Source: an uncultured Clostridia bacterium
GTDB lineage: Bacteria; Bacillota; Clostridia; Oscillospirales; Oscillospiraceae
Assembly (NCBI GenBank): GCA_947572235.1
Contig: CANPBB010000009.1
Coordinates: 1-44,874, forward strand
DNA length: 44,874 nt
Direction of reading: 5' to 3'
The notes beneath the pieces were generated by a model, which made no database searches, was not told the DNA's origin, and saw only the letters and a program-made list of their open reading frames with translations. Shown here piece after piece: positions 28,277 through 43,999 of this stretch. Made by a program: the position numbers and the translations under genes. The number at the start of each line of letters is the position of its first letter. Within the stretch, counting starts at the first letter, position 1.

Positions 28277-28324
28277 GCGGCTGCGTCCCTTGTCTCTGCA
28301 ACACACTCAGAAAGGATGGCCCCA

Positions 28325-30427
28325 ATGAGACGACTTCTCCAAAACAGCATCGCCCTCTTGGTGGTGGTCATCGTCCTCTTCCTCGTGATCCCCATCCCCC
28401 CCTTCCTGCTGGATCTGCTTTTGATCATCAACATCTCCCTGTCCATTCTGATTTTGATGATCACCATGACCATCGCGGACGCGCAGGAGTTCTCCATCTT
28501 TCCCTCGCTGCTGCTGATCACCACGCTGTTCCGCTTGGGGCTAAACGTCTCCACCACTCGGCAGATCTTGGGTGAGGCCGGCGGCAACAGTACCGTGATC
28601 AACGCCTTCGGCCACCTGATCACCAGCGGCAACATCGTCTTGGGCGTGATCATCTTCCTGATCATCGTCCTAGTGCAGTTTATCGTCATCACCAAAGGCG
28701 CCGAGCGTGTCTCCGAGGTGGCGGCCCGGTTCACCTTGGACGCCATGCCCGGTAAGCAGATGGCCATTGACGCCGACCTCAGCTCGGGCCTGATCAACGA
28801 GCAGCAGGCCCGGGAGCGCCGGGCCAAGATCCAGAAGGACGCCGACTTCTACGGCGCCATGGACGGCGCCACCAAGATCGTCAAGGGCGACTCCATCATG
28901 GGCCTCATCATCACCGCCGTCAACTTTATCGGCGGACTGATCATCGGCTCTGTCAACGGCGTGCAGAACGTGCTGGAGGTCTACTCCATCGCCACCATCG
29001 GCGACGGCTTGGTCTCCCAGCTCCCCGCCCTGATGATCTCCACCGCCACGGGCATGATCGTCACCCGCTCCGTCTCCGACGGCAGCCTGAATAACGACGT
29101 GATCACCCAGTTTAAGAACCAGCCCCGGGCTATCACCAGCGGCGGCGTGGTGATCTTCCTCTTGGGTCTCATCCCCGGCACGCCCCACCTGCCCCTGATT
29201 CTCGTGGGTTCCGGCTTAGGCGCCGGCGGCTATGTGATGCTCCGCCGTCTCAGCCGCCAGCGGGCGGAGGAGGAGGCCATGGCTGTGGAGCAGCAGGCCG
29301 CCCCAGAGGCCGAGGCCATGCCCAGCGAGACCGACTACTACAAGGACATCAACAACGTCTACAGCCTCCTGACGGTGGATCCCATCGAGATGGAGTTTGG
29401 ATACAGCTTGATCCCCTTGGTGGACGAGAACAGCGGCGGCAAGCTGATCAGCCGCATTGTCATCTTCCGCCGGCAGTATGCACAGGATATGGGCTTTGTC
29501 ATCCCCTCTATCCGTCTCCACGACTCCTCCGCCTTGGGAACCAACCAGTACATTGTCAAAATCAAAGGCGAAGAGGTAGCCCGTGGCGAGATTTTGGTGG
29601 ACTACTATTTGGCCTTGGAACCGGCCAACCCCGCCGGGGAGATCGACGGTATCGAGACGGTGGAGCCGGCCTACGGCATTCCCTCCCGGTGGATTCTGCC
29701 GGAGAACAAGGAGATGGCCGAGATCTACGGCTATACCGTTATCGACCCCCTCAGCGTTATGCAGACCCACCTCAGCGAGGTGATCCGCCGCCACGCCTAC
29801 GAGCTTCTGGGCCGGTCGGAGGTAATCCAGCTGGTGGAAAACCTCAAGCGTACCTCCCCCGAGCTGGTGGAGGAGGTCATCCCCAACTACCTCTCCTACG
29901 CCAACTTGGAGCGTATCCTCCGCGGCCTCTTGAAGGAGGGCATCCCCATCCGGGATCTGGCCACCATCTTGGAGACCGCTATGGAAGCGCTGATGAACAC
30001 CAAGGACTTGGATATGGTCACAGAGAATATCCGCGTGGCCCTCAGCCGCACCATTACCCGCCGCTTCTGCGAGCATGGCCAGCTTCGGGTGGTCACGCTG
30101 GAGGCGGAGGTGGAGAAACGGATCATCGCCTCCCTCAGCAAAAACGAACAGGGCATCTACTTGGCAATGGGTCCGGATTTGATGCAGCAGATCATCTCCC
30201 AGCTGGGGGATTTCATGAAGAAGTTCAACGACCTCAGTCAGACCCCCATTGTCCTCACCAGTCAGGTCATCCGTGTCTATCTCAGCCGGATGCTTGCCCA
30301 GTTCTACCCAGGGCTCTATGTGCTGTCCTTTAACGAGATCACCAGCGACGTGCAGATCCAGTCCCTTGGCAACGTGACCATCCCCCATGAGTCCCGACGT
30401 TCCGAGAGGCAGGTGGCGGCGGTATGA
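28325..30427 (+). CDS. flhA: Flagellar export gate protein FlhA
   Basis: A 700-residue FlhA. About eight N-terminal membrane segments are visible, with the family's [26 protein letters not shown] and the cytoplasmic FHIPEP-type loop region ([23 protein letters not shown]). The C-terminal domain docks chaperone-substrate complexes. I use ATG 28325; an ATG nine bases upstream (28316) is too close to the AGAAAGG site. The last four bases (ATGA) overlap the fliA start. flhF and flhG, which often come next in related clusters, are absent. Confidence 0.96.
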
Positions 30428-31236
30428 CGGAGCGCTCCTCCGCCGCCGCGGCGCGGCCCTACACCGAATCAGAGATCGAGGCCATGACCACCGAGGAGCT
30501 GCTCCTCACCTACAAGCAGACCCATCAGGAGGAGCTGAAATGGCCCTTGGTCCTGCGCTATGTGGGCTTGGTGCGGAGCATCGCCCTTCAAGTCCGCGGT
30601 GTCTACAGCTCCTTTGCCCAAGTGGACGACATCATCAACGAGGGTGTCTTGGCCTTAGTGGGCGCGGTGGACAAATTTGACTTGGAGAAGGGCGTCAAGT
30701 TTGAGACCTACGTCTCCAAGCGCATCCGGGGAGCCGTCATCGACTTGGCCCGCCGGCAGGACTGGGTTCCCCGCAGCGTGCGGCGGAAGGCCCGGGAGAT
30801 CGACCAAGTGAGCAACGAGCTCTTCGCCGAACTGGGGCGCTACCCCTCCGACGAGGAGATGACCGCCCGCTTGGGAATCACCGTGGACCAGTACCAAGAG
30901 GACCTTGCCAACTCCTCGCTGTGCAACATCCTCTCCTTGGACTCCCTCTTTGAGGACCGGGAGAAAAACAGCGCCGACGTGGCCGACAGCGACAGCTTCA
31001 GCCGCCCGGAGGAGTCCCTTATGCGGCAGGAGCTCTTGGAGACGCTGACCCAAGGCGTCGCCTCCCTGCGGGAGAATGAGCAGCTGGTGGTATCCCTCTA
31101 CTACCAGAAAAACCTGAGCATGAAGGAGATCGCCCAAGTGCTGGAGGTCAGCGAGCCGCGGATCTCCCAGATCCACTCCCGGGCTATCCAGAAGCTGAGA
31201 ACCTATATGAAGCAGTACATGACCGGGGGGCGCTGA
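30424..31236 (+). CDS. fliA: Flagellar sigma factor sigma-28 (FliA/SigD/WhiG type)
   Basis: A 270-residue sigma factor. Region 2 appears as [20 protein letters not shown] and [32 protein letters not shown]; region 3 follows; region 4 has the helix-turn-helix [29 protein letters not shown]. It transcribes late genes and is held by FlgM. The gene overlaps flhA by four bases. Its likely target promoters here are at 1263-1290 and perhaps 39306-39332. Confidence 0.96.
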
Positions 31237-35177: not shown

Positions 35178-36497
35178 ATGAATAACAGCAAATATATTGT
35201 CCGCCAGCCCATCAAAGACCTCAACGGCAAAATCATCGGCTACGAGATTTTGTACCACGGGGAGAATCAGGCCTACAGCAGCATTGAGGCGCCCTCCAAC
35301 GAGTTTGCCGCTGCGGACACTATCTACAGCTTCCTCACCCAGAATACCGACAAGCTGTTTAAAGGCTCTGTGAGCTTTATGACCTTCACCACCACCCTGC
35401 TGATGAAGCAGACCCCCAAGATCTTCAACAGCACAGACCTTGTGGTGCAGGTGGACGACAGCGTGATCATCCACCCCTTGGCTATGCACTTTGTGGAGCG
35501 TCTGTCCAAGGAGGGGTACAAGATCGCGGTAAATGAGTTCCAGTTCTCTCCCCGCTACATCTCCATCATTGACAAGTTTGACTACATCAAGATCAACTTT
35601 AAGGACGGCTCCGACAACAGCATCCGCAACGTGGTGGAGCTGGCCCACAGCATGGGCAAGCAGTGCATTGCCACCGGAATTGACGACGAGCGGCTCTACC
35701 GTCAGGCTTTCGCCATGAACGTAGACGCCATGGCCGGCCGCTATGTGGCGGAGGAGCTGTTCACCACCGTCCACAACAGCAGCTACCTGCAGAGCAACTT
35801 CTTTCGGCTGATGGTGGCTATCACCGAGGATGAACCCGACGTGGAGGAGATCGAGCGGATCATCTCCACCGACGCCATGCTGACCTACAGCCTCCTGAAG
35901 ATCGTCAACTCCGGCTACTTCGCCCTGCGCAACCGGGCCACAGAGGTCCACCAAGCCATTGTCATCATGGGTCTGGGCCAGCTGCGCCAGTGGATCTACC
36001 TTCTCAGCATGGGCAACAGCGACGGCGGTGTGGATGACAGTCAGGAGGAGTTCTTAAAACTCTCCTTCACCCGGGCCACCTTCTGCAGCGAGCTGATGCG
36101 CTACGCCAAAAATATGCCCATCACCCGCAACGACGCCTACCTCATGGGCATGTTCTCCACGCTGAACTTCCTTATTGCCGCCCCCATGGAGGAGATCCTC
36201 GCCGGCATCCCCATCTCCCAGCACGTGAAGGAGGCCCTCCTCGCCCACTCCGGCCGCTGCGGCATGCTCTATGACTTGGTGCTCTGCTATGAGCGGGCGG
36301 ACTGGACGGCTATCGGCTCCTTGGCGGAGACCTTGGGCATCCCGGTGGACCAGCTGACCAACACCTATTTCCACTGCTTGGAAGAGGTGGGCAATATCTG
36401 GCGCCAGCTGATGGGTTCCAGCGAACCCCCGCCCCCGGAACCCGCCCCGGAACCCGCCCCCACCGAGATCTCCTTCCCCGGCCCCACTCCCTCCTGA
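35178..36497 (+). CDS. Degenerate EAL plus HDOD domain protein (YuxH-like)
   Basis: A 439-residue protein. The N-terminal half (about 1-195) is an EAL-type barrel, but the active-site motifs have decayed: EAL reads EIL (GYEILYHG), the DDFG-type loop reads NEFQF, and the KiD motif reads KIN. I expect no c-di-GMP hydrolysis. The C-terminal half (about 200-400) is an HDOD domain (IISTDAMLTYSLLKIVNSGYFALRN; EVHQAIVIMGLGQLRQWI). The tail is Pro/Glu-rich. Such proteins act as signalling scaffolds near motility genes. It ends the main operon. GGAGGG precedes the ATG. Confidence 0.88.
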   Translation: MNNSKYIVRQPIKDLNGKIIGYEILYHGENQAYSSIEAPSNEFAAADTIYSFLTQNTDKLFKGSVSFMTFTTTLLMKQTPKIFNSTDLVVQVDDSVIIHPLAMHFVERLSKEGYKIAVNEFQFSPRYISIIDKFDYIKINFKDGSDNSIRNVVELAHSMGKQCIATGIDDERLYRQAFAMNVDAMAGRYVAEELFTTVHNSSYLQSNFFRLMVAITEDEPDVEEIERIISTDAMLTYSLLKIVNSGYFALRNRATEVHQAIVIMGLGQLRQWIYLLSMGNSDGGVDDSQEEFLKLSFTRATFCSELMRYAKNMPITRNDAYLMGMFSTLNFLIAAPMEEILAGIPISQHVKEALLAHSGRCGMLYDLVLCYERADWTAIGSLAETLGIPVDQLTNTYFHCLEEVGNIWRQLMGSSEPPPPEPAPEPAPTEISFPGPTPS

Positions 36498-36756: not shown

Positions 36757-37005
36757 TTAATCATCCAATAGGGTCTGATAACTTACTTCCAACACTTTTG
36801 CGATTACTTTAAGCTCAATATCTGTCACATACCGCTTCCCGCACTCAATTCTCTGTATGGCATTTTTGTCCAAATCAATCCCTGCCACTTGCAGCAATTC
36901 TGCCAATTTTCGTTGGGAGGTTTTTTCGGAACGCCCCTCCCGAAGCTCCCGAATCTTCCTTCCACAAATATTGTTTGTGCCGCTGCTTGCCTTATTCTTG
37001 TACAT
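36757..37005 (-). CDS. XRE-family transcription regulator
   Basis: An 82-residue helix-turn-helix protein of Cro/CI type. The DNA-binding fold spans about 15-78: IRELREGRSEKTSQRKLAEL, then KNAIQRIECGKRYVTDIELKVIAKVLEV. I chose the ATG at 37005, since TGGAGAAA lies upstream; a longer frame from 37041 would start directly after a -10-like TATAAT and without a site. A repeated TTGACATTT operator-like element lies in its leader (37021-37041) and upstream (37074-37094), which suggests autoregulation and control of the divergent gene. Confidence 0.85.
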   Translation of the reverse strand: MYKNKASSGTNNICGRKIRELREGRSEKTSQRKLAELLQVAGIDLDKNAIQRIECGKRYVTDIELKVIAKVLEVSYQTLLDD

Positions 37006-37020
37006 AAGTTTTTCTCCATT

Positions 37021-37101
37021 TTGACATTTAGTAGTTGTCATTTTTACTATTATATGATAAACTACTCACCAGATTGACATTTACTAAATGTCAAAAATAA
37101 T
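37021..37101. promoter_or_regulatory. Divergent promoters and operator pair for the XRE regulator
   Basis: Operator-like dyads: TTGACATTT-N3-AAATGTCAA, perfect, at 37074-37094; and TTGACATTT-N3-AGTTGTCAT, imperfect, at 37021-37041. On the plus strand TTGACA (37074-37079) and AATAAT (37096-37101) with a 16-base spacer form a promoter whose -35 lies inside the operator. On the minus strand TATAAT (37054-37049) could serve the regulator gene, though its -35 is poor. Confidence 0.6.
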
Positions 37102-37120
37102 TTCTAATGAAGACAAATTT

Positions 37121-37377
37121 ATGGAAAGTATCTTAACTGCCCTGTGTCACGGTCAAATCTACCCCTCGGAGCAGTACGCCCCTAAGACCAAGGAGTTCCA
37201 AGCACTTCAGGAGGAGCAGCTTACGCGCTACAACGATTTCATCCAGCAGCTGCCCCCCAGCACTCAGCAAGCAATTCAGGGTCATCATCCATCCCCTATG
37301 AATACCAGTCCATGTCCACCAACGGCTTCCGCTTAGGGGCCCTTCTCATGTTGGAAGTCCTCCAGCCCCCGCTCTAA
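37121..37377 (+). pseudogene. Frameshifted DUF6809-like small gene
   Basis: From ATG 37121 the frame encodes MESILTALCHGQIYPSEQY, like the start of small proteins I know as DUF6809 (pattern ILxALYxGxIxPxEQ). This frame runs out into unrelated residues and stops at 37334-37336. The family's C-terminus (GFRLGALLMLEVL) is found in another frame from about 37294 to the TAA at 37375-37377. So a one-base deletion or equivalent shift around 37265-37295 broke the gene. An upstream ATG at 37088 lies inside the operator and before the likely transcription start. The function of the family is unknown to me. Confidence 0.7.
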
Positions 37378-37482: not shown

Positions 37483-38409
37483 TTACCGCCCGTGGTGCGG
37501 CCGGTCCATCACCAGCTTGCAGGCCCGGGTCAGCTGGGCGAAGATGGTGCTGGAGTAGCGGCCCTCGTAGATGGTCAGCATGGGTACCATCTCGTTCTTG
37601 TGCATCACCACATACTTGGGCACCAGATTGGACAAGGTCAGCGCCTTTACATCCATCTCGCACCGGCGGCAGGGGCACAGCCCGAACATCTGGATATACC
37701 GGGGCGCCTTCTCCTCCACCAAAATCTGCATCACGTTAACGTAGTTCAGGCCCTCGTCGTTGGGATCCACATCGGCGGTGTGGGTCAGCACCTCCGGATT
37801 CTCCTGCATCGTAACAGGCAGATCGTACCCCCGCTCCCCCTCGGGCAGCGGCTCCGGTTCGATGGCCGCCATAGCCTCCGGAGGCAGATCCCCCAGCTCC
37901 TCCGCCATGGCCGGCATCTTCAGGGTCTCAGCGATATCCGCCGCCGCCTCTTCCATCAAGTTCTCTGTCATAGGCTCCTCCCTTACCTCCGCCTCCATCT
38001 GAGGCTCCGCCTCTGGTTCCTCCGCCGCCGCTGCCGGAGCCTCCTCGACGATCTCCTCCTCATGGGCTGCTTCCGTCTCACCGGCTGTCTCCTCTGCCTC
38101 CAGCTCCCCCGCGGAAGGGGCTGCCGCCTCAGGCTCTGCCGGAAACGCCTCCGCCTCGGGAAACTCCTCCTCCAGCGCCTGTAGAATCTGGCCGGAGAGC
38201 TGCTCATCGTCGGCCCGGGCCACCTCCAAAATCGGCGGTGTCAGGGGCCGGGAGACCGGCGCCGCTGCCGCGGCGGACTGCTCCACAGTTTCACCGCCTG
38301 CCTCCTTGGAGACAGCGGGGGTGCTCTCCGCCTCCGTGCCCGGCGCGGTGAGCAGGTTCAGTACGTGGGCGGTTTTGGTACTCTTCGCGTTCTTCTTGCT
38401 TGTAGCCAT
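37483..38409 (-). CDS. ComFB-domain protein with a long acidic linker, partner of ParA
   Basis: A 308-residue protein in three parts. Residues 1-20 are Lys-rich then hydrophobic (MATSKKNAKSTKTAHVLNLL). Residues about 60-215 are very rich in Glu, Ala and Pro and probably disordered. Residues about 221-308 are a ComFB domain: NYVNVMQILVEE, Cys at 245, 247 and 250 in LCPCRRCEMDVKALTLSNL, then VPKYVV. ComFB is the name of a late competence protein; cyanobacterial members have been described as cyclic-di-nucleotide receptors. The gene follows parA 37 bases downstream on the minus strand, the same layout as ParA with its partner. The role is inferred: adaptor or cargo for the ParA ATPase. GGAGAGAG precedes the ATG. 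Confidence 0.8.
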   Translation of the reverse strand: MATSKKNAKSTKTAHVLNLLTAPGTEAESTPAVSKEAGGETVEQSAAAAAPVSRPLTPPILEVARADDEQLSGQILQALEEEFPEAEAFPAEPEAAAPSAGELEAEETAGETEAAHEEEIVEEAPAAAAEEPEAEPQMEAEVREEPMTENLMEEAAADIAETLKMPAMAEELGDLPPEAMAAIEPEPLPEGERGYDLPVTMQENPEVLTHTADVDPNDEGLNYVNVMQILVEEKAPRYIQMFGLCPCRRCEMDVKALTLSNLVPKYVVMHKNEMVPMLTIYEGRYSSTIFAQLTRACKLVMDRPHHGR

Positions 38410-38446
38410 GGTATCACTCTCTCCTTACCTTGGTATCCTTTACCAC

Positions 38447-39223
38447 TTATCCTTCAATTCCTAAACCGTACTCCCGCTGAATCTCCCTGAGCAGCGCCCG
38501 GAAGTCCCCCGCCGGCTTGGAGTCGGGGGCATAGGTCAGCACGCTCTCCCCGTGGGCTGGGGCCTCGGCCACCGCCACGCTGGCGCGGATTCTGGTGCGG
38601 AACACCTTGGTATCCAGCTGGGCGGCAATCTGGGCAGCCATATCCAGCACCTCCCGGTTCAGTGTAAGGCGCTGGTTAAACTTGTTGAGCAGGATCCCCA
38701 GCACCTTCAGCCGGGAGTTATAGTGCCGGCGGACGGTGTCGATGGTCTCCCGGATCTGGGCCACGCCCAGAAGGCTGAGAATCTCCGGGGCCATGGGGAT
38801 CACCAGCCCGTCCGAGGCCACGTAGGCATTCACCGTCAGCACGTTCAGCGCCGGCGGCGTGTCGATAATGATGTAGTCGTACTGATCCTGCACCTCACTG
38901 AGATGATTGCGCAGGAGAAACTCCCGGCCGGGCCGGTTGAACTCCAGCTCCGCCGCGCTGAGCAAAATATTGGAGGGGACAATATCCCCGCACTCCGAAG
39001 GCATAACCACCTCCTGAATGGAACAGGTGCCCCGCATGACATCATAGATGGTGGAGCAGTGTTCGATATCCAGCCCTAAGCAGAAGCCCAAGCTCCCCTG
39101 CGGGTCCAGATCCACTCCCAGCACCCGGGCCCCCTGTTGGCGCAGCCCGGCCAGCAGCGAACAGGCCGTGGTCGTCTTCCCTACCCCGCCCTTTTGGTTG
39201 GTGATGGCGATTACAGCTGACAA
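38447..39223 (-). CDS. ParA/Soj-family ATPase
   Basis: A 258-residue ParA-type ATPase. The deviant Walker A motif KGGVGKTT is at 11-18, the switch I segment DLDPQG at 38-43 and Walker B IIIDTPP at 118-124. It begins almost directly with the Walker A strand, so it lacks the N-terminal FlhF-activating (DQAxxLR) extension of FlhG. It is closer to Soj/ParA than to FlhG or MinD; no C-terminal amphipathic membrane-targeting helix is obvious. ParA proteins form ATP-bound dimers on DNA and position plasmids, chromosomes, chemoreceptor arrays or other cargo. It starts with TTG (39223) after a GGGGG site. Inferred target: a flagellar or chemosensory structure. Confidence 0.88.
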   Translation of the reverse strand: MSAVIAITNQKGGVGKTTTACSLLAGLRQQGARVLGVDLDPQGSLGFCLGLDIEHCSTIYDVMRGTCSIQEVVMPSECGDIVPSNILLSAAELEFNRPGREFLLRNHLSEVQDQYDYIIIDTPPALNVLTVNAYVASDGLVIPMAPEILSLLGVAQIRETIDTVRRHYNSRLKVLGILLNKFNQRLTLNREVLDMAAQIAAQLDTKVFRTRIRASVAVAEAPAHGESVLTYAPDSKPAGDFRALLREIQREYGLGIEG

Positions 39224-39394
39224 AATCTTTTTCCCCCTTGTAAATTCTTTGTGGAAACTCTTAACTTTACTATACTACGTGACGATAAAAAAGTACAGAG
39301 GGTTTCTACTTTTTCTTTGTTTTCCCGATAAAGGTTTTTTCCGGCACTCCCAATATCATTCGTTATAGATTATTCTGTCAAAGGAGAGATGAAT
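39224..39394. promoter_or_regulatory. Divergent promoter region, parA / fliD
   Basis: A 171-base AT-rich gap. On the plus strand CCGATAAA at 39325-39332 is a good sigma-28 -10 box with a weak -35 (CTAC, 39306-39309), for the fliD operon. On the minus strand TATAGT about 50 bases upstream of the parA TTG is a possible -10, with a weak -35. AGGAG (39382-39386) serves fliD. Confidence 0.5.
39306..39332 (+). promoter_or_regulatory. Sigma-28-type promoter of fliD
   Basis: CCGATAAA (39325-39332) matches the sigma-28 -10 box very well. At the correct distance upstream (15 bases) is CTAC, a poor match to CTAAA. fliD is a sigma-28 gene in the bacteria studied, which supports the site. Confidence 0.5.
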
Positions 39395-42187
39395 ATGGCG
39401 TCCATTAACGGTGTCAGCAGCAAAAACGGCGTCAGCAGCCTGTATAACAGCTCCAAGGTCATCAGCGGTCTGGCCAGCGGTTTAGATACCGAGAGCATGA
39501 TCGAGGGTCTGGTCCAAAGCTATCAGAACAAGATTACCTCCCTGAGCCAGAAGGCCACCAAGGTGGAATGGAAGCAGGATGCCTACCGGAGCATCATCGC
39601 CAAGATGAACAGCTTCACCAGTAAATACACCTCCTTCTCCTCCAGCACCAACCTTCTGTCCAACTCTTTCTTCAGCTCCGCCATCAATGTGGCCACCCAG
39701 GGCAAGTACGCCGACAAGGTCTCCGCCAGCGGCAAGACCAGCAGCGACATCACCTTAGACCGGGTGAAGCAGCTGGCCACCTCTGCCCAATTCCGCACCA
39801 AAGGCAACCTGATCGCCGGCGATGGCAAGAGCATTGAGGCCAGCAAGGGGCTGGACCTGAACGGCAAGACCACCTTGGGCTCCCTCAGCGGCAGCCTCTC
39901 TCTGACCTACGGCAGCAACACCATCACCCTCAACTTCGATGAGGTAGCCGATCAGGAGGCCTTGGCCGAGCTGAAGGAGAAGAACCCGAAGATGACCGAG
40001 ACCGAGGCGCTGGCCGCCCTCATCAACCAGAAGCTGGACGGCCAGAAGATTTCCTTCAGCGGCGGCGGCTCCGCCGACGCCAAGGACCGCATCGAGGTGA
40101 AGGCAGACGGTATGAACATCACCTTCTCCGACAAGTCCACCGCCGGCAACAGCGTCTACCTCTCCAGCGCCAGCGGCAATGTGGCGGAAACCTTGGGTCT
40201 GGACTTGGAGAACGCCAAGGAGGATAAACCCGCCTCCATCAAGCTCAATTACGACTTCTCCACCACCAAAGATGTGGACAACGCCAAGTACCTGTCTGAG
40301 AAGAGCATGAATCTGAGCTTGGACGGCAGCGTCAAGCAGATCAAGCTGCCCAAAATCACCGGCAGCGACGGCAACTACCGGATCGTGGACTCCGACGGCA
40401 AGGCCTTGGACTACACCGCCGAGAACTACGCCAAAGTCCTCAATGACGCTCTGAACAAGGCCTACAAGGGCAAGGTCACCGTGGAGAACAAGGGGACCGA
40501 CGGCGAGCTCAAGCTGCGCTTCAACGTGCAGGAGGGTTCCGATCTGATTATCAACACCGATGTGGGCGAGACCTTGGGCATCGGCCGGGCCGCCACCAGC
40601 TACCTGAACACCAGCAAGACCTTGGAGGACCTCTTGGGCAAGGAGAAGCTGGAGGGGCTCACCGCCGCCAAGGACAAGGACGGCAAGGATCTCTTGGACG
40701 ACAAGGGCAACAAGCTCTATGAGTTCAAGATCAACGACGTGGTGATCGGCCAGTACTCCAAGGACACCAAGCTCTCTGAGATCCTCAGCGATATCAACGC
40801 CAACAAGGAAGCCGGCATGAAGGTGAGCTACTCCCAGACCACCAAGAATTTCACCTTCACCTCCAGCGAGACCGGCGCCGACAGCGAGATCAAGATCAGC
40901 GGCGGCTTGGCCGAAGCCATGTTCGGCACCACCGAGATCAGTGACCAAAGCGGCAGCAGCTTTGCCGAGTCCTACGGCTTCGGCTGGCTGAAAGATGGCC
41001 AAAGCACCCAGCTCAAGGTCGATATGCCCGGCGTTGGCAATACCTCCTTCAATATCACAAAGGAGACCTCGCTCCAAGATGTGGTAAACAATCTGAATAA
41101 AGCCTACCAGCAGAAATATAATTTCTCCTACAACAAGTACTCCGGACAGATCGAGGCCAGAGATGCGAAGAGCGGCGAGCTGACCGAATTCAAAATGACG
41201 AATGAGTTCGGCAAGGACGTGGAATTTGACGAGTCCAAGGCCCCCGATATTGACTATACCCCCGGCCAAGACGCCGAGTTCACCGTCACTGTCAACGGTG
41301 AGACCATCAACATGAAGCGCGCCAGCAACAGCGTCAATATTGACGGCCTCACCATCAACATGAAGGACACCTTCGACGGCGCCAAGAATGAGGACGGCAC
41401 CGATGCCGTAAGCAACGCCGGCAAGCCCCTGAACGCCGTCTCCTTCAAGACCACTACCGACTCCGACAAGATTGTGGACGCGGTAAAGAGCATGATCGCC
41501 GACTACAACGAGATGATGGGCGAGATCAAGAAGGCCTACGCCACCCTGCCCTACCAGAAGTCCAGCGGCGCTTTTGCCGACTATGAGCCCCTCACCGATG
41601 AGGACCGGGCAGGCATGTCCGAGAGCGCCATCGAGCGGTATGAGGAGAAGGCCAAGCAGGGCATCCTCTTTGGCGACCGGAACCTCTCCGCACTTTATGA
41701 CAAAATGCGCAATGTGTTCACCATTGGCGGCGAGGACGGCGCCCTGCTCAAGAAGATGGGCATCACCTCCACCTATTCCACCAGCGACGGCGCCATGACC
41801 ATCTCCTTAGACGAGAAGAAGCTCCGCGAGATGCTGGACAGCGACCCCGACGCGGTGGCCTCTGTGTTCACTAAAAGCCAAGAGAACGGCTCCGCCACCA
41901 ACGGCATCATGCAGAATATGAAGAACACCTTGGACACCTACGGCCGAACCACCGGAGCCACCAAGGGCATCTTGGTGGAGCAGGCGGGCACTCCCCTCAG
42001 CTCCCTGTCCCTGATGAACAACACATGGCAGAAGGAGATTGAGAAGATCAATACCGACATCGAGAAGTGGCAGGATAAGCTCTCCACCCAGGTGGACCGC
42101 TATACCCAGCAGTTCAGCCGCTTGGAGCAGCTGATTAACCAGATGAACTCCCAGAGTTCCGCCCTCATGGGGATGATGGGCGGCTAA
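39395..42187 (+). CDS. fliD: Filament cap protein FliD (HAP2)
   Basis: A 930-residue FliD, much longer than the common 450-700. The N-terminus (SKVISGLASGLDTESMIEGLVQSYQNKITSL) and C-terminus (WQDKLSTQVDRYTQQFSRLEQLINQMNSQSSALMGMM) are typical. Between them are several flagellin-hook-IN-like segments, which account for the extra length. The cap promotes flagellin assembly at the tip. I use ATG 39395, eight bases after AGGAG; ATG 39389 is too close to that site. It starts the operon with fliS and fliT. Confidence 0.95.
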   Translation: MASINGVSSKNGVSSLYNSSKVISGLASGLDTESMIEGLVQSYQNKITSLSQKATKVEWKQDAYRSIIAKMNSFTSKYTSFSSSTNLLSNSFFSSAINVATQGKYADKVSASGKTSSDITLDRVKQLATSAQFRTKGNLIAGDGKSIEASKGLDLNGKTTLGSLSGSLSLTYGSNTITLNFDEVADQEALAELKEKNPKMTETEALAALINQKLDGQKISFSGGGSADAKDRIEVKADGMNITFSDKSTAGNSVYLSSASGNVAETLGLDLENAKEDKPASIKLNYDFSTTKDVDNAKYLSEKSMNLSLDGSVKQIKLPKITGSDGNYRIVDSDGKALDYTAENYAKVLNDALNKAYKGKVTVENKGTDGELKLRFNVQEGSDLIINTDVGETLGIGRAATSYLNTSKTLEDLLGKEKLEGLTAAKDKDGKDLLDDKGNKLYEFKINDVVIGQYSKDTKLSEILSDINANKEAGMKVSYSQTTKNFTFTSSETGADSEIKISGGLAEAMFGTTEISDQSGSSFAESYGFGWLKDGQSTQLKVDMPGVGNTSFNITKETSLQDVVNNLNKAYQQKYNFSYNKYSGQIEARDAKSGELTEFKMTNEFGKDVEFDESKAPDIDYTPGQDAEFTVTVNGETINMKRASNSVNIDGLTINMKDTFDGAKNEDGTDAVSNAGKPLNAVSFKTTTDSDKIVDAVKSMIADYNEMMGEIKKAYATLPYQKSSGAFADYEPLTDEDRAGMSESAIERYEEKAKQGILFGDRNLSALYDKMRNVFTIGGEDGALLKKMGITSTYSTSDGAMTISLDEKKLREMLDSDPDAVASVFTKSQENGSATNGIMQNMKNTLDTYGRTTGATKGILVEQAGTPLSSLSLMNNTWQKEIEKINTDIEKWQDKLSTQVDRYTQQFSRLEQLINQMNSQSSALMGMMGG

Positions 42188-43261: not shown

Positions 43262-43999
43262 ATGGCGGAAATTCGTTTAGAAAATGTTTCAAAACGGTAT
43301 AAGGCCGAGGGCCGGGTGCAGTACGCGGTGCGGGATATCAGTCTCACCATCGAACAAGGGGAGTTCGTCTTTCTCATTGGCAGCAGCGGGGCAGGCAAAA
43401 GCACCCTTTTGAAGCTGATCAGCCGGGAGATTACCCCTGACGAGGGCGTGGCCTACCTTAACAATATGAACATGGCCCGGTACGTGGGCCCATGGCGCGC
43501 TCAGCTCTCCCGTTCCTTCGGCGTGGTCAGCCAGCAGTCCCTCTTGATTCGCAAGCGCACTATTGGGGACAACCTGCTCATCGCCGCCCGGGCCACCGGG
43601 ATGTACCGCAAGGGGCAGAAAGCGGTGCCCAAAGCCTTGGGCATTGTGGGGCTGCCCAATGTAGAGTCCTGTTTCCCCGCGGAGCTATCCATCGGAGAGT
43701 GCCGCCGGGCGGAACTGGCCCGCGCTTTGGTCTCCAGCCCGCCAATTTTGCTCTTAGATGAGTTGACAGCGAACTTAGATGATGATAATATTTGGGATAT
43801 GATGCACCTTTTGAAGGAGCTTAATGACCACGGTACTACCATCGTCATGGCCACCCACGCCAGCCAGTACGTCAATATCATGCGTAAGCGGGTGGTCACG
43901 CTGGTGGACGGTCGGATCGTGGGCGATGTGAGAAATGGAAAATACGGCGACATCGCGGGACCATCCAAGGGCGGTTCGTCTTCAGATATGATTGTGTAG
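43262..43999 (+). CDS. FtsE-like ABC ATPase without a partner permease
   Basis: A 245-residue ABC ATPase closest to FtsE/LolD. It begins IRLENVSKRYKAEGRVQYAVRDISLTI; Walker A is GSSGAGKST at 40-48, Q-loop near 91, Walker B ILLLDE at 162-167 with LTANLD after it and H199. The signature at 142-146 reads LSIGE, where LSGGE is normal, and ECRRAEL replaces EQQR-type residues. No FtsX-like permease is adjacent. FtsE-FtsX controls wall hydrolases at division. A flagellar role is only suggested by location. GTAAGGAG precedes the ATG. Confidence 0.8.
   Translation: MAEIRLENVSKRYKAEGRVQYAVRDISLTIEQGEFVFLIGSSGAGKSTLLKLISREITPDEGVAYLNNMNMARYVGPWRAQLSRSFGVVSQQSLLIRKRTIGDNLLIAARATGMYRKGQKAVPKALGIVGLPNVESCFPAELSIGECRRAELARALVSSPPILLLDELTANLDDDNIWDMMHLLKELNDHGTTIVMATHASQYVNIMRKRVVTLVDGRIVGDVRNGKYGDIAGPSKGGSSSDMIV

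Follow-up and report, generated by a model that had tools for sequence, protein, structure and literature searches.

What is a ParA-type ATPase doing inside a flagellar gene locus, with a ComFB-domain protein encoded directly behind it? The question is raised by a stretch of 44,874 nt from an uncultured Clostridia bacterium of the family Oscillospiraceae (GenBank assembly GCA_947572235.1, contig CANPBB010000009.1; hereafter the window), in which the two genes lie side by side on the minus strand between the genes for an EAL–HDOD protein and FliD, both of which are on the opposite strand. In a group of clostridia-type bacteria, the pair has the look of a hitherto undescribed means of determining the sites or the number of flagella. 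On balance, we favour the view that it serves the flagellum as a dedicated two-component positioning system of the ParA/MinD type, a function that we infer from gene layout, conservation and genomic context.

A conserved gene pair

The preliminary description of this DNA, made from the sequence alone, had reported a ParA gene followed 37 bases later by one for a protein whose basic N-terminal tip is joined to a C-terminal ComFB domain by an acidic linker. Both open reading frames (ORFs) are intact and the Pfam matches bear the description out:

38447–39223, minus strand: ParA-type ATPase, flagellum-associated subfamily, 258 aa, TTG start (AAA_31, E = 1.7e-52)
37483–38409, minus strand: ComFB-domain partner protein, 308 aa, ATG start, 37 nt after parA (PF10719, E = 1.8e-11)
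38338–38409, minus strand: N-terminal basic tag of the partner, residues 1–24, K12 T13.. V16 L17. L19 L20 (alignment, regular expression)
37750–38337, minus strand: acidic low-complexity linker, residues 25–220, charge −49 (composition)
37498–37740, minus strand: ComFB domain, residues 224–304, probable zinc-binding dimer (Pfam; match to 4wai, E = 1e-9)
37492–37494, minus strand: codon for His306, expected fourth zinc ligand (invariant in 19 of 19 aligned partners, His in 77 of 78 paired domains)

The possibility that such a pair is not conserved elsewhere had been raised at the same time, and this is not what we found. A ParA scan of 84,980 species genomes gave 583 relatives, of which the best 80 were considered; scored against a profile built from the paired ParAs, 58 of these 80 reach at least 311 bits and the other 22, of the Soj type, stay at or below 248 bits. 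Of the 58 high scorers, 54 are immediately followed by a ComFB gene and four lie where the contig ends; a ComFB gene was found after none of the 22 low scorers. Within the family, 46 of 250 genomes have a ComFB match, either in short stand-alone proteins or in longer ones. In 67 ComFB loci, a translated search placed a ParA (E ≤ 1e-47) immediately before ComFB wherever a long-linker locus had room for it, and also in a second, shorter class; beside stand-alone ComFB genes it detected none at that threshold. In L062, this search matched ParA and missed a ComFB that is nevertheless present; the seeming absence of ParA in L034 and L047 proved to be an artefact of ORF choice.

Once contigs occurring twice across samples had been merged, there were 77 distinct paired and 33 unpaired ComFB proteins. 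The intergenic gap in the 77 pairs ranges from −62 to 402 nt and is under 50 nt in 68 of them. Their hosts include members of the Oscillospiraceae, Lachnospiraceae (Lacrimispora, Eisenbergiella, Enterocloster and Mediterraneibacter), Agathobaculum and Erysipelotrichaceae. Given the recurring gene order and the rarity in shuffled sequences of the N-terminal tag described below, the arrangement is beyond chance.

Tag, linker and domain of the partner

ComFB is the only Pfam match in the partner of the window (44.4 bits, against a curated cut-off of 25); neither DNA-binding nor ParB domains were matched in Pfam. Residues 1–24 carry a net charge of +4, and the strongly acidic segment that follows contains 47 Glu, 39 Ala and 22 Pro. 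The basic N-terminal peptide singled out in the preliminary description is under strong constraint: when 19 class-1 partners are aligned (mean column identity 35%), none of them departs from K12, T13 or V16. A regular expression for this KT tag matches 70 of the 77 paired ComFBs, 0.013% of shuffled N-termini and none of the 33 unpaired proteins, which include two paired copies cut at a contig start, with tags not visible (G189, L061; G172, L027/L119). A second tag type (DK; DKxxM[FY]xKIMP-like), which accompanies the class-2 and Erysipelotrichaceae ParAs, occurs in six of the 77 paired proteins and again in none of the 33. One of the two tags is thus found in 76 of 77 paired ComFBs versus 0 of 33 unpaired ones, and the 77th paired protein, in L059, carries a DK-like variant.

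Across the 70 KT-tagged partners, the tag charge has a median of +3 (range +1 to +5), and the linkers, 34 to 416 aa long, have a median charge of −25 (range −65 to +4). Linker length and most of the linker sequence are unconserved among the 19 aligned partners, apart from one stretch near residues 56–82 (PPILEVAR..D...S.QI..AL) in which I75 and L79 are nearly invariant. In genome G513 (L213:1–2907), a GGDEF gene is followed by a ParA of the paired group, scoring 369 bits, and then by a partner that has the KT tag and an acidic linker and gives no Pfam ComFB match. The tag therefore tracks this ParA as its neighbour even where ComFB is unrecognizable, which is the behaviour expected of a ParA-docking peptide.

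Bacillus subtilis ComFB forms obligate dimers in which each subunit carries one zinc, and Cys or His serves as the fourth zinc ligand in ComFB (PMC4381287). Residue counts were made over 78 paired domains (L061 was moved to this set) and 32 stand-alone ones (L027 stays there). Each of the three zinc-site Cys is present in 78 of 78 paired domains and the C-terminal His in 77 of 78; N225, C245, C247, C250, D253, Y266 and His306 are invariant in 19 of 19 class-1 partners. N225, D253 and Y266 are the equivalents of the B. subtilis ComFB dimer-interface residues N4, D33 and Y46; the equivalent of E7 is E or Q and that of N40 is N in just 31 of the 78. With CxCxxC and the C-terminal His kept, the paired ComFBs are predicted to bind zinc. 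We also observed an extra Cys in the last stretch of 66 of the 78 paired domains (alignment column 97), a position at which Leu, Ala and Val are the most frequent residues in the stand-alone ones.

Link to the flagellum

The flagellar locus of the window, whose genes were named from their ORFs by homology, runs from flgN–flgK–flgL through flhA, fliA, flgG, cheC, cheD, cheV and the EAL–HDOD gene to fliD, fliS and fliT. That the pair tracks flagellar genes holds well beyond this genome. Neighbourhoods were counted where the contig extends 4 kb or more to one side, a condition that kept 71 of the 77 paired ComFBs and dropped the other six together with 21 of the 33 unpaired proteins; a flagellar gene lies within 8 kb of 67 of the 71 testable pairs, and fliD within 8 kb of 58. 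None of the 22 Soj-type loci had a flagellar match except for FliI-like ones. In L154, L167 and L186, the pair is instead located between flgG and cheC, so that its flagellar linkage survives rearrangement. The features of the window to which these comparisons refer, with one promoter-like site, are:

35178–36497, plus strand: EAL–HDOD protein, convergent neighbour of the pair (Pfam HDOD and EAL)
39389–42187, plus strand: fliD, divergent neighbour
28316–31236, plus strand: flhA and directly after it fliA, without flhF/flhG between them (ORFs)
39352–39381, minus strand: promoter-like site 5′ of parA, TTGACA, 18 nt, GATATT (consensus scan only)

FlhA was found in 15 of the 16 pair genomes checked and, among the 250 family genomes, in 44 of 46 with any ComFB versus 9 of 204 without ComFB. 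In the family sample, ComFB of any type was thus almost restricted to flagellated genomes. In L009 and L015, fliD has a short stand-alone ComFB gene no more than 1.5 kb away, so stand-alone ComFB may also serve motility.

The pair and FlhF/FlhG

FlhF and FlhG are described as the conserved switch behind many flagellation patterns (PMC12826062). In the window, flhA abuts fliA, and its genome (87% complete) has no FlhF above the cut-off. The 53 FlhA-encoding genomes of the family draw comprise 26 with the pair and without FlhF, 12 with FlhF and without the pair, and 15 with neither, some of which are contig-cut. In a draw of 291 genomes from the class, 112 have FlhA and 102 of these have FlhF, none together with a ParA of the paired group; the five genomes with such a ParA and no FlhF are G000, G366, G408 and G491, where the partner is ComFB, and G513 with its tagged partner. 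The pair was therefore seen in 0 of 114 FlhF-bearing genomes (0 of 12 in the family and 0 of 102 in the class). These counts include a divergent FlhF beside FlhA in one of the 12 (G032) and in seven of the 102, and exclude G321, which has FlhF and no FlhA match. In seven of 17 class genomes, FlhF only seemed to be missing because of the threshold: a divergent FlhF adjoins FlhA.

The Fisher p-values for FlhF versus the pair (1e-4 in the family; 1.9e-6 in the class, or 3.4e-5 leaving out G513; G172 and G189 left out of the pair-bearing side) overstate the independent evidence, because the exclusion of FlhF corresponds to about one branch, that is, roughly one evolutionary event. In a 102-row FlhA tree, all 46 sampled pair rows fall inside one 50-row branch (SH-aLRT 98, quick method). 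This tree labels G513 (L254) as pair-bearing, contains two rows with the pair region off-contig and one (L109) that ends just after FlhA, and leaves out the genomes of L157, L169, L174, L178, L179 and L181–L183.

Several relatives lack both systems at this position. L089, L093, L094, L096, L101, L104 and L105 represent a flagellar lineage of the same family without the pair and without FlhF/FlhG at flhA; the ORF between flhA and fliA in L093 encodes PilZ. In G338 (L242:1000–2445), a 481-aa protein is encoded between flgG and cheC, where sister lineages have the pair, and an ORF of like size is found in G432 (L247).

The ATPase

Signature Lys11, Walker A Lys16 and Walker B Asp121 are each present in 46 of 46 aligned ParA relatives, and Asp40 in 45 of 46; judging from these residues, the deviant Walker A site of the ParA/MinD superfamily is intact in the paired ParAs. 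A 112-row tree splits off FlhG (18 rows) at 100/100 and Soj (46 rows) at 99/100, leaving the 48 paired ParAs outside both clades. Because their placement needs one or two changes, the tree neither establishes nor excludes a single origin of these ParAs. Within them, the class-2 and two Erysipelotrichaceae ParAs cluster together with weak support (82/31).

The N-terminal DQAxxLR helix and a C-terminal membrane-targeting sequence are defining features of FlhG (PMC12826062). That helix is present in 18 of 18 FlhG and in 0 of 48 paired ParAs. The median length from Walker B to the end is 139 and 135 aa in the paired ParAs, 131–133 aa in Soj and 154 aa in FlhG, and a C-terminal extension of the FlhG type, judged indirectly by this length, was not found in the paired ParAs. 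FlhG under another name was ruled out on tree position, the lack of the helix and the unextended C-terminus. Of the basic residues expected on the C-terminal side of a nucleoid-binding ParA of the Soj type, R185 is present in 42 of the 46 aligned ParAs; at position 217, where Soj has another DNA-binding Arg, Arg never predominates, and K or R is common at 211 and 213 instead.

A candidate positioning system

ParA would bind ATP, dimerize and associate with a surface, probably the nucleoid, since it has no extra membrane-targeting tail. The partner would be a dimer through its C-terminal zinc-binding ComFB domains, as suggested by B. subtilis ComFB, and these domains would attach to part of the flagellum or to a factor in its assembly, while the long acidic linkers would let both N-terminal tags reach and bind the ParA dimer. 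By analogy with other partner proteins, tag binding would trigger ATP hydrolysis and ParA release, and repeated capture and release would space the flagella or set their number, in a flagellar lineage that has the pair and appears to lack the usual placement pair FlhF/FlhG. Such ATPases are engaged by their partners through a disordered N-terminus that is positively charged, the remainder of the partner binding cargo (PMC10241942). The ComFB-type partner is most likely a new partner type of ParA/MinD positioning systems. A literature search for ComFB with ParA, flagella, motility or cyclic di-GMP (c-di-GMP) found no such pair described in titles or the first part of abstracts, with subscription papers and preprints mostly uncovered. 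The interpretation offered in the preliminary description is thus partly supported, with ATPase stimulation, localization and cargo being points that we infer.

The similarities to known systems are partial. FlhF–FlhG also has a ParA/MinD-superfamily ATPase encoded in a flagellar locus, whereas the pair described here has no DQAxxLR helix, no C-terminal extension and no FlhF, and occupies a separate branch of the tree. ParA(Soj)–ParB shares the order of a ParA-like ATPase and then a partner with a basic N-terminal peptide, but here the partner is ComFB-only, the locus is flagellar and the ATPase falls outside the Soj clade. The carboxysome-positioning McdA–McdB likewise combines a ParA-like ATPase with a partner that has a charged N-terminus (PMC10241942); it differs in partner domain and gene context, and in a PDB search the McdA chains obtained much lower scores than those of Soj. 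The ComFB/CdgR receptors have in common with the partner the ComFB domain, the zinc Cys pattern and the dimer-interface Asn and Tyr, to which the paired proteins add the tag, the linker, the ParA operon and the extra Cys; a loop Gly of the receptors is mostly lost. ParC–ParP and PpfA–TlpT, which position chemoreceptor arrays, also have ParA-like ATPases in a motility setting; the pair differs from them in being present in two draft genomes where no chemotaxis genes were detected.

Several observations weigh against a dedicated flagellar positioning system. The cargo end is not always a recognizable ComFB, as seen in G513. Four pairs (L132, L157, L169 and L181) are located off recognizable flagellar loci; their genomes all have FlhA, and in L132 a flagellar-locus ABC gene is two genes from the pair. 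One pair genome, G552, has no FlhA match. The exclusion of FlhF counts for about one event, as noted above. Nine FlhA rows of another branch lack both FlhF/FlhG and the pair, and inside the pair branch, G338 and G432 show no pair and no FlhF/FlhG at flhA. In the incomplete genome of the window, no further ParA was found at E 1e-65 or better, so its ParA may have a second job. Since other lineages have lost FlhF/FlhG without gaining the pair, replacement of one by the other can be proposed only tentatively. In the fullest version of this view, which we regard as speculative and rather unlikely, the ancestor of one clostridial lineage of flagella would have exchanged FlhF/FlhG for the pair as the means of placing and counting flagella; cyclic dinucleotides, zinc or redox state would act on the cargo end of the partner, so that the state of the cell would directly set where flagella are kept and in what number.

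Alternative explanations

Two alternatives keep a positioning ATPase and change what controls it or what it carries. That c-di-GMP or c-di-AMP gates the pair by acting on the ComFB domain, a view that overlaps with the one we favour, is suggested by the ComFB/CdgR proteins of cyanobacteria, which bind both dinucleotides (PMC12313861), and by the gene neighbourhood: an EAL–HDOD gene lies within 4.5 kb of 34 of the 71 testable pairs, a GGDEF gene is upstream of the pair in L157 and L169 and likewise in G513, a PilZ gene is beside it in L055 and L181 (upstream in the latter), and the genome of the window has three GGDEF matches, one of them weak. The domain itself argues otherwise. The Gly in the loop after the conserved Tyr, which may or may not contact the ligand, is present in 32 of 32 stand-alone ComFBs and in the c-di-GMP receptor 8hja, versus 8 of 78 paired domains, with Asn in its place in the window; the paired profile has no match to 8hja at E up to 1, unlike the stand-alone profile, which matches it at 1e-6; and the G513 partner has a GGDEF neighbour yet no recognizable ComFB. 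We therefore consider gating through ComFB rather unlikely, if worth keeping in mind. For the response to c-di-GMP envisaged in the preliminary description, a link through the neighbourhood is conceivable, since EAL–HDOD, GGDEF and PilZ genes are common neighbours, whereas sensing by the paired ComFB domain is doubtful. The same description had named chemoreceptor arrays as a possible cargo, and an array-positioning pair would fit with CheA being present in 43 of 48 pair genomes, including 27 of 27 of good quality, and with cheC, cheD and cheV adjoining many pairs; of the genomes without CheA, G203 and G539 have chemoreceptors and CheW, and G543 has chemoreceptors. However, no CheA, MCP or CheW match was found in the Erysipelotrichaceae metagenome-assembled genomes (MAGs) G546 and G547, which encode FlhA and the pair, within assemblies whose completeness is not stated (L182 is on a 4.4-kb contig, and the FlhA of G546 is in two pieces), and the proximity of fliD to so many pairs also speaks for the flagellum. 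The two MAGs speak against arrays as the general cargo and favour the flagellum itself; as they are drafts with the DK-type tag, the KT branch could differ in its cargo. An array-positioning role appears quite unlikely.

The remaining alternatives dispense with flagellar positioning. The ATPase could be an ATP switch and its partner the effector in regulating flagellar gene expression or assembly, as might be suspected from the FlhG homologue FleN, named a transcriptional antiactivator in the PDB, and from ComFB acting as a regulator in cyanobacteria (PMC12313861). The tag–linker–domain layout, however, matches that of ParA cargo partners (PMC10241942), and the partner has no Pfam DNA-binding domain, leaving this an improbable explanation. 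An ordinary chromosome or plasmid partition ParA that happens to be located in a flagellar locus is recommended by the closest solved structures to the window ParA by sequence, which are those of ParA/Soj, and by the missing second ParA at E 1e-65 in the same genome. Against it stand the tree position outside the Soj clade and the gap of 311 versus 248 bits among the best 80 of 583 relatives. Moreover, G408 and G491 hold this ParA and another one at 230–234 bits, and G366 holds it and one at 277 bits; the partner was unmatched in 72,556 plasmids, and the neighbours are flagellar. A partition ParA was accordingly rejected on tree, score gap and genomic context, and we regard it as highly improbable.

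Other features of the locus

Two small genes, one encoding a helix-turn-helix protein and the other a DUF6809 ORF, separate the EAL–HDOD and ComFB genes of the window (36757–37336); in L037, the EAL–HDOD and ComFB genes are about 50 nt apart. The genome of the window has a single ComFB match. A sigma-28 promoter before parA was considered and rejected: the window has three consensus matches, which is the chance level (at least three in 14 of 100 shuffles), and none is near parA. Beyond fliT, an ABC ATPase gene (43262–43999), presumably resembling FtsE, is also found in many class-1 loci. In L157:7931–12354 and L169:4298–9179, the pair stands between a PAS-GGDEF diguanylate cyclase and MreB, with no flagellar match nearby; MreB was assigned by Pfam in L157 and by a near-identical start in L169.

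Implications

If the pair is a positioning system for the flagellum, it would be an independent solution to flagellar placement, with a different ParA and an unrelated partner instead of FlhF/FlhG, and it would provide a test of whether ParA-type positioning is interchangeable. The tag offers a direct handle on the system: its Lys-Thr is found in 70 of the 77 paired ComFBs and in none of the unpaired ones, and it is retained where ComFB is unrecognizable (G513). The hosts of the pair include cultured, named organisms, among them the non-pathogenic Lacrimispora xylanisolvens DSM 3808 and Clostridium sp. 12(A). In these bacteria, the ComFB domain would gain a role in motility.

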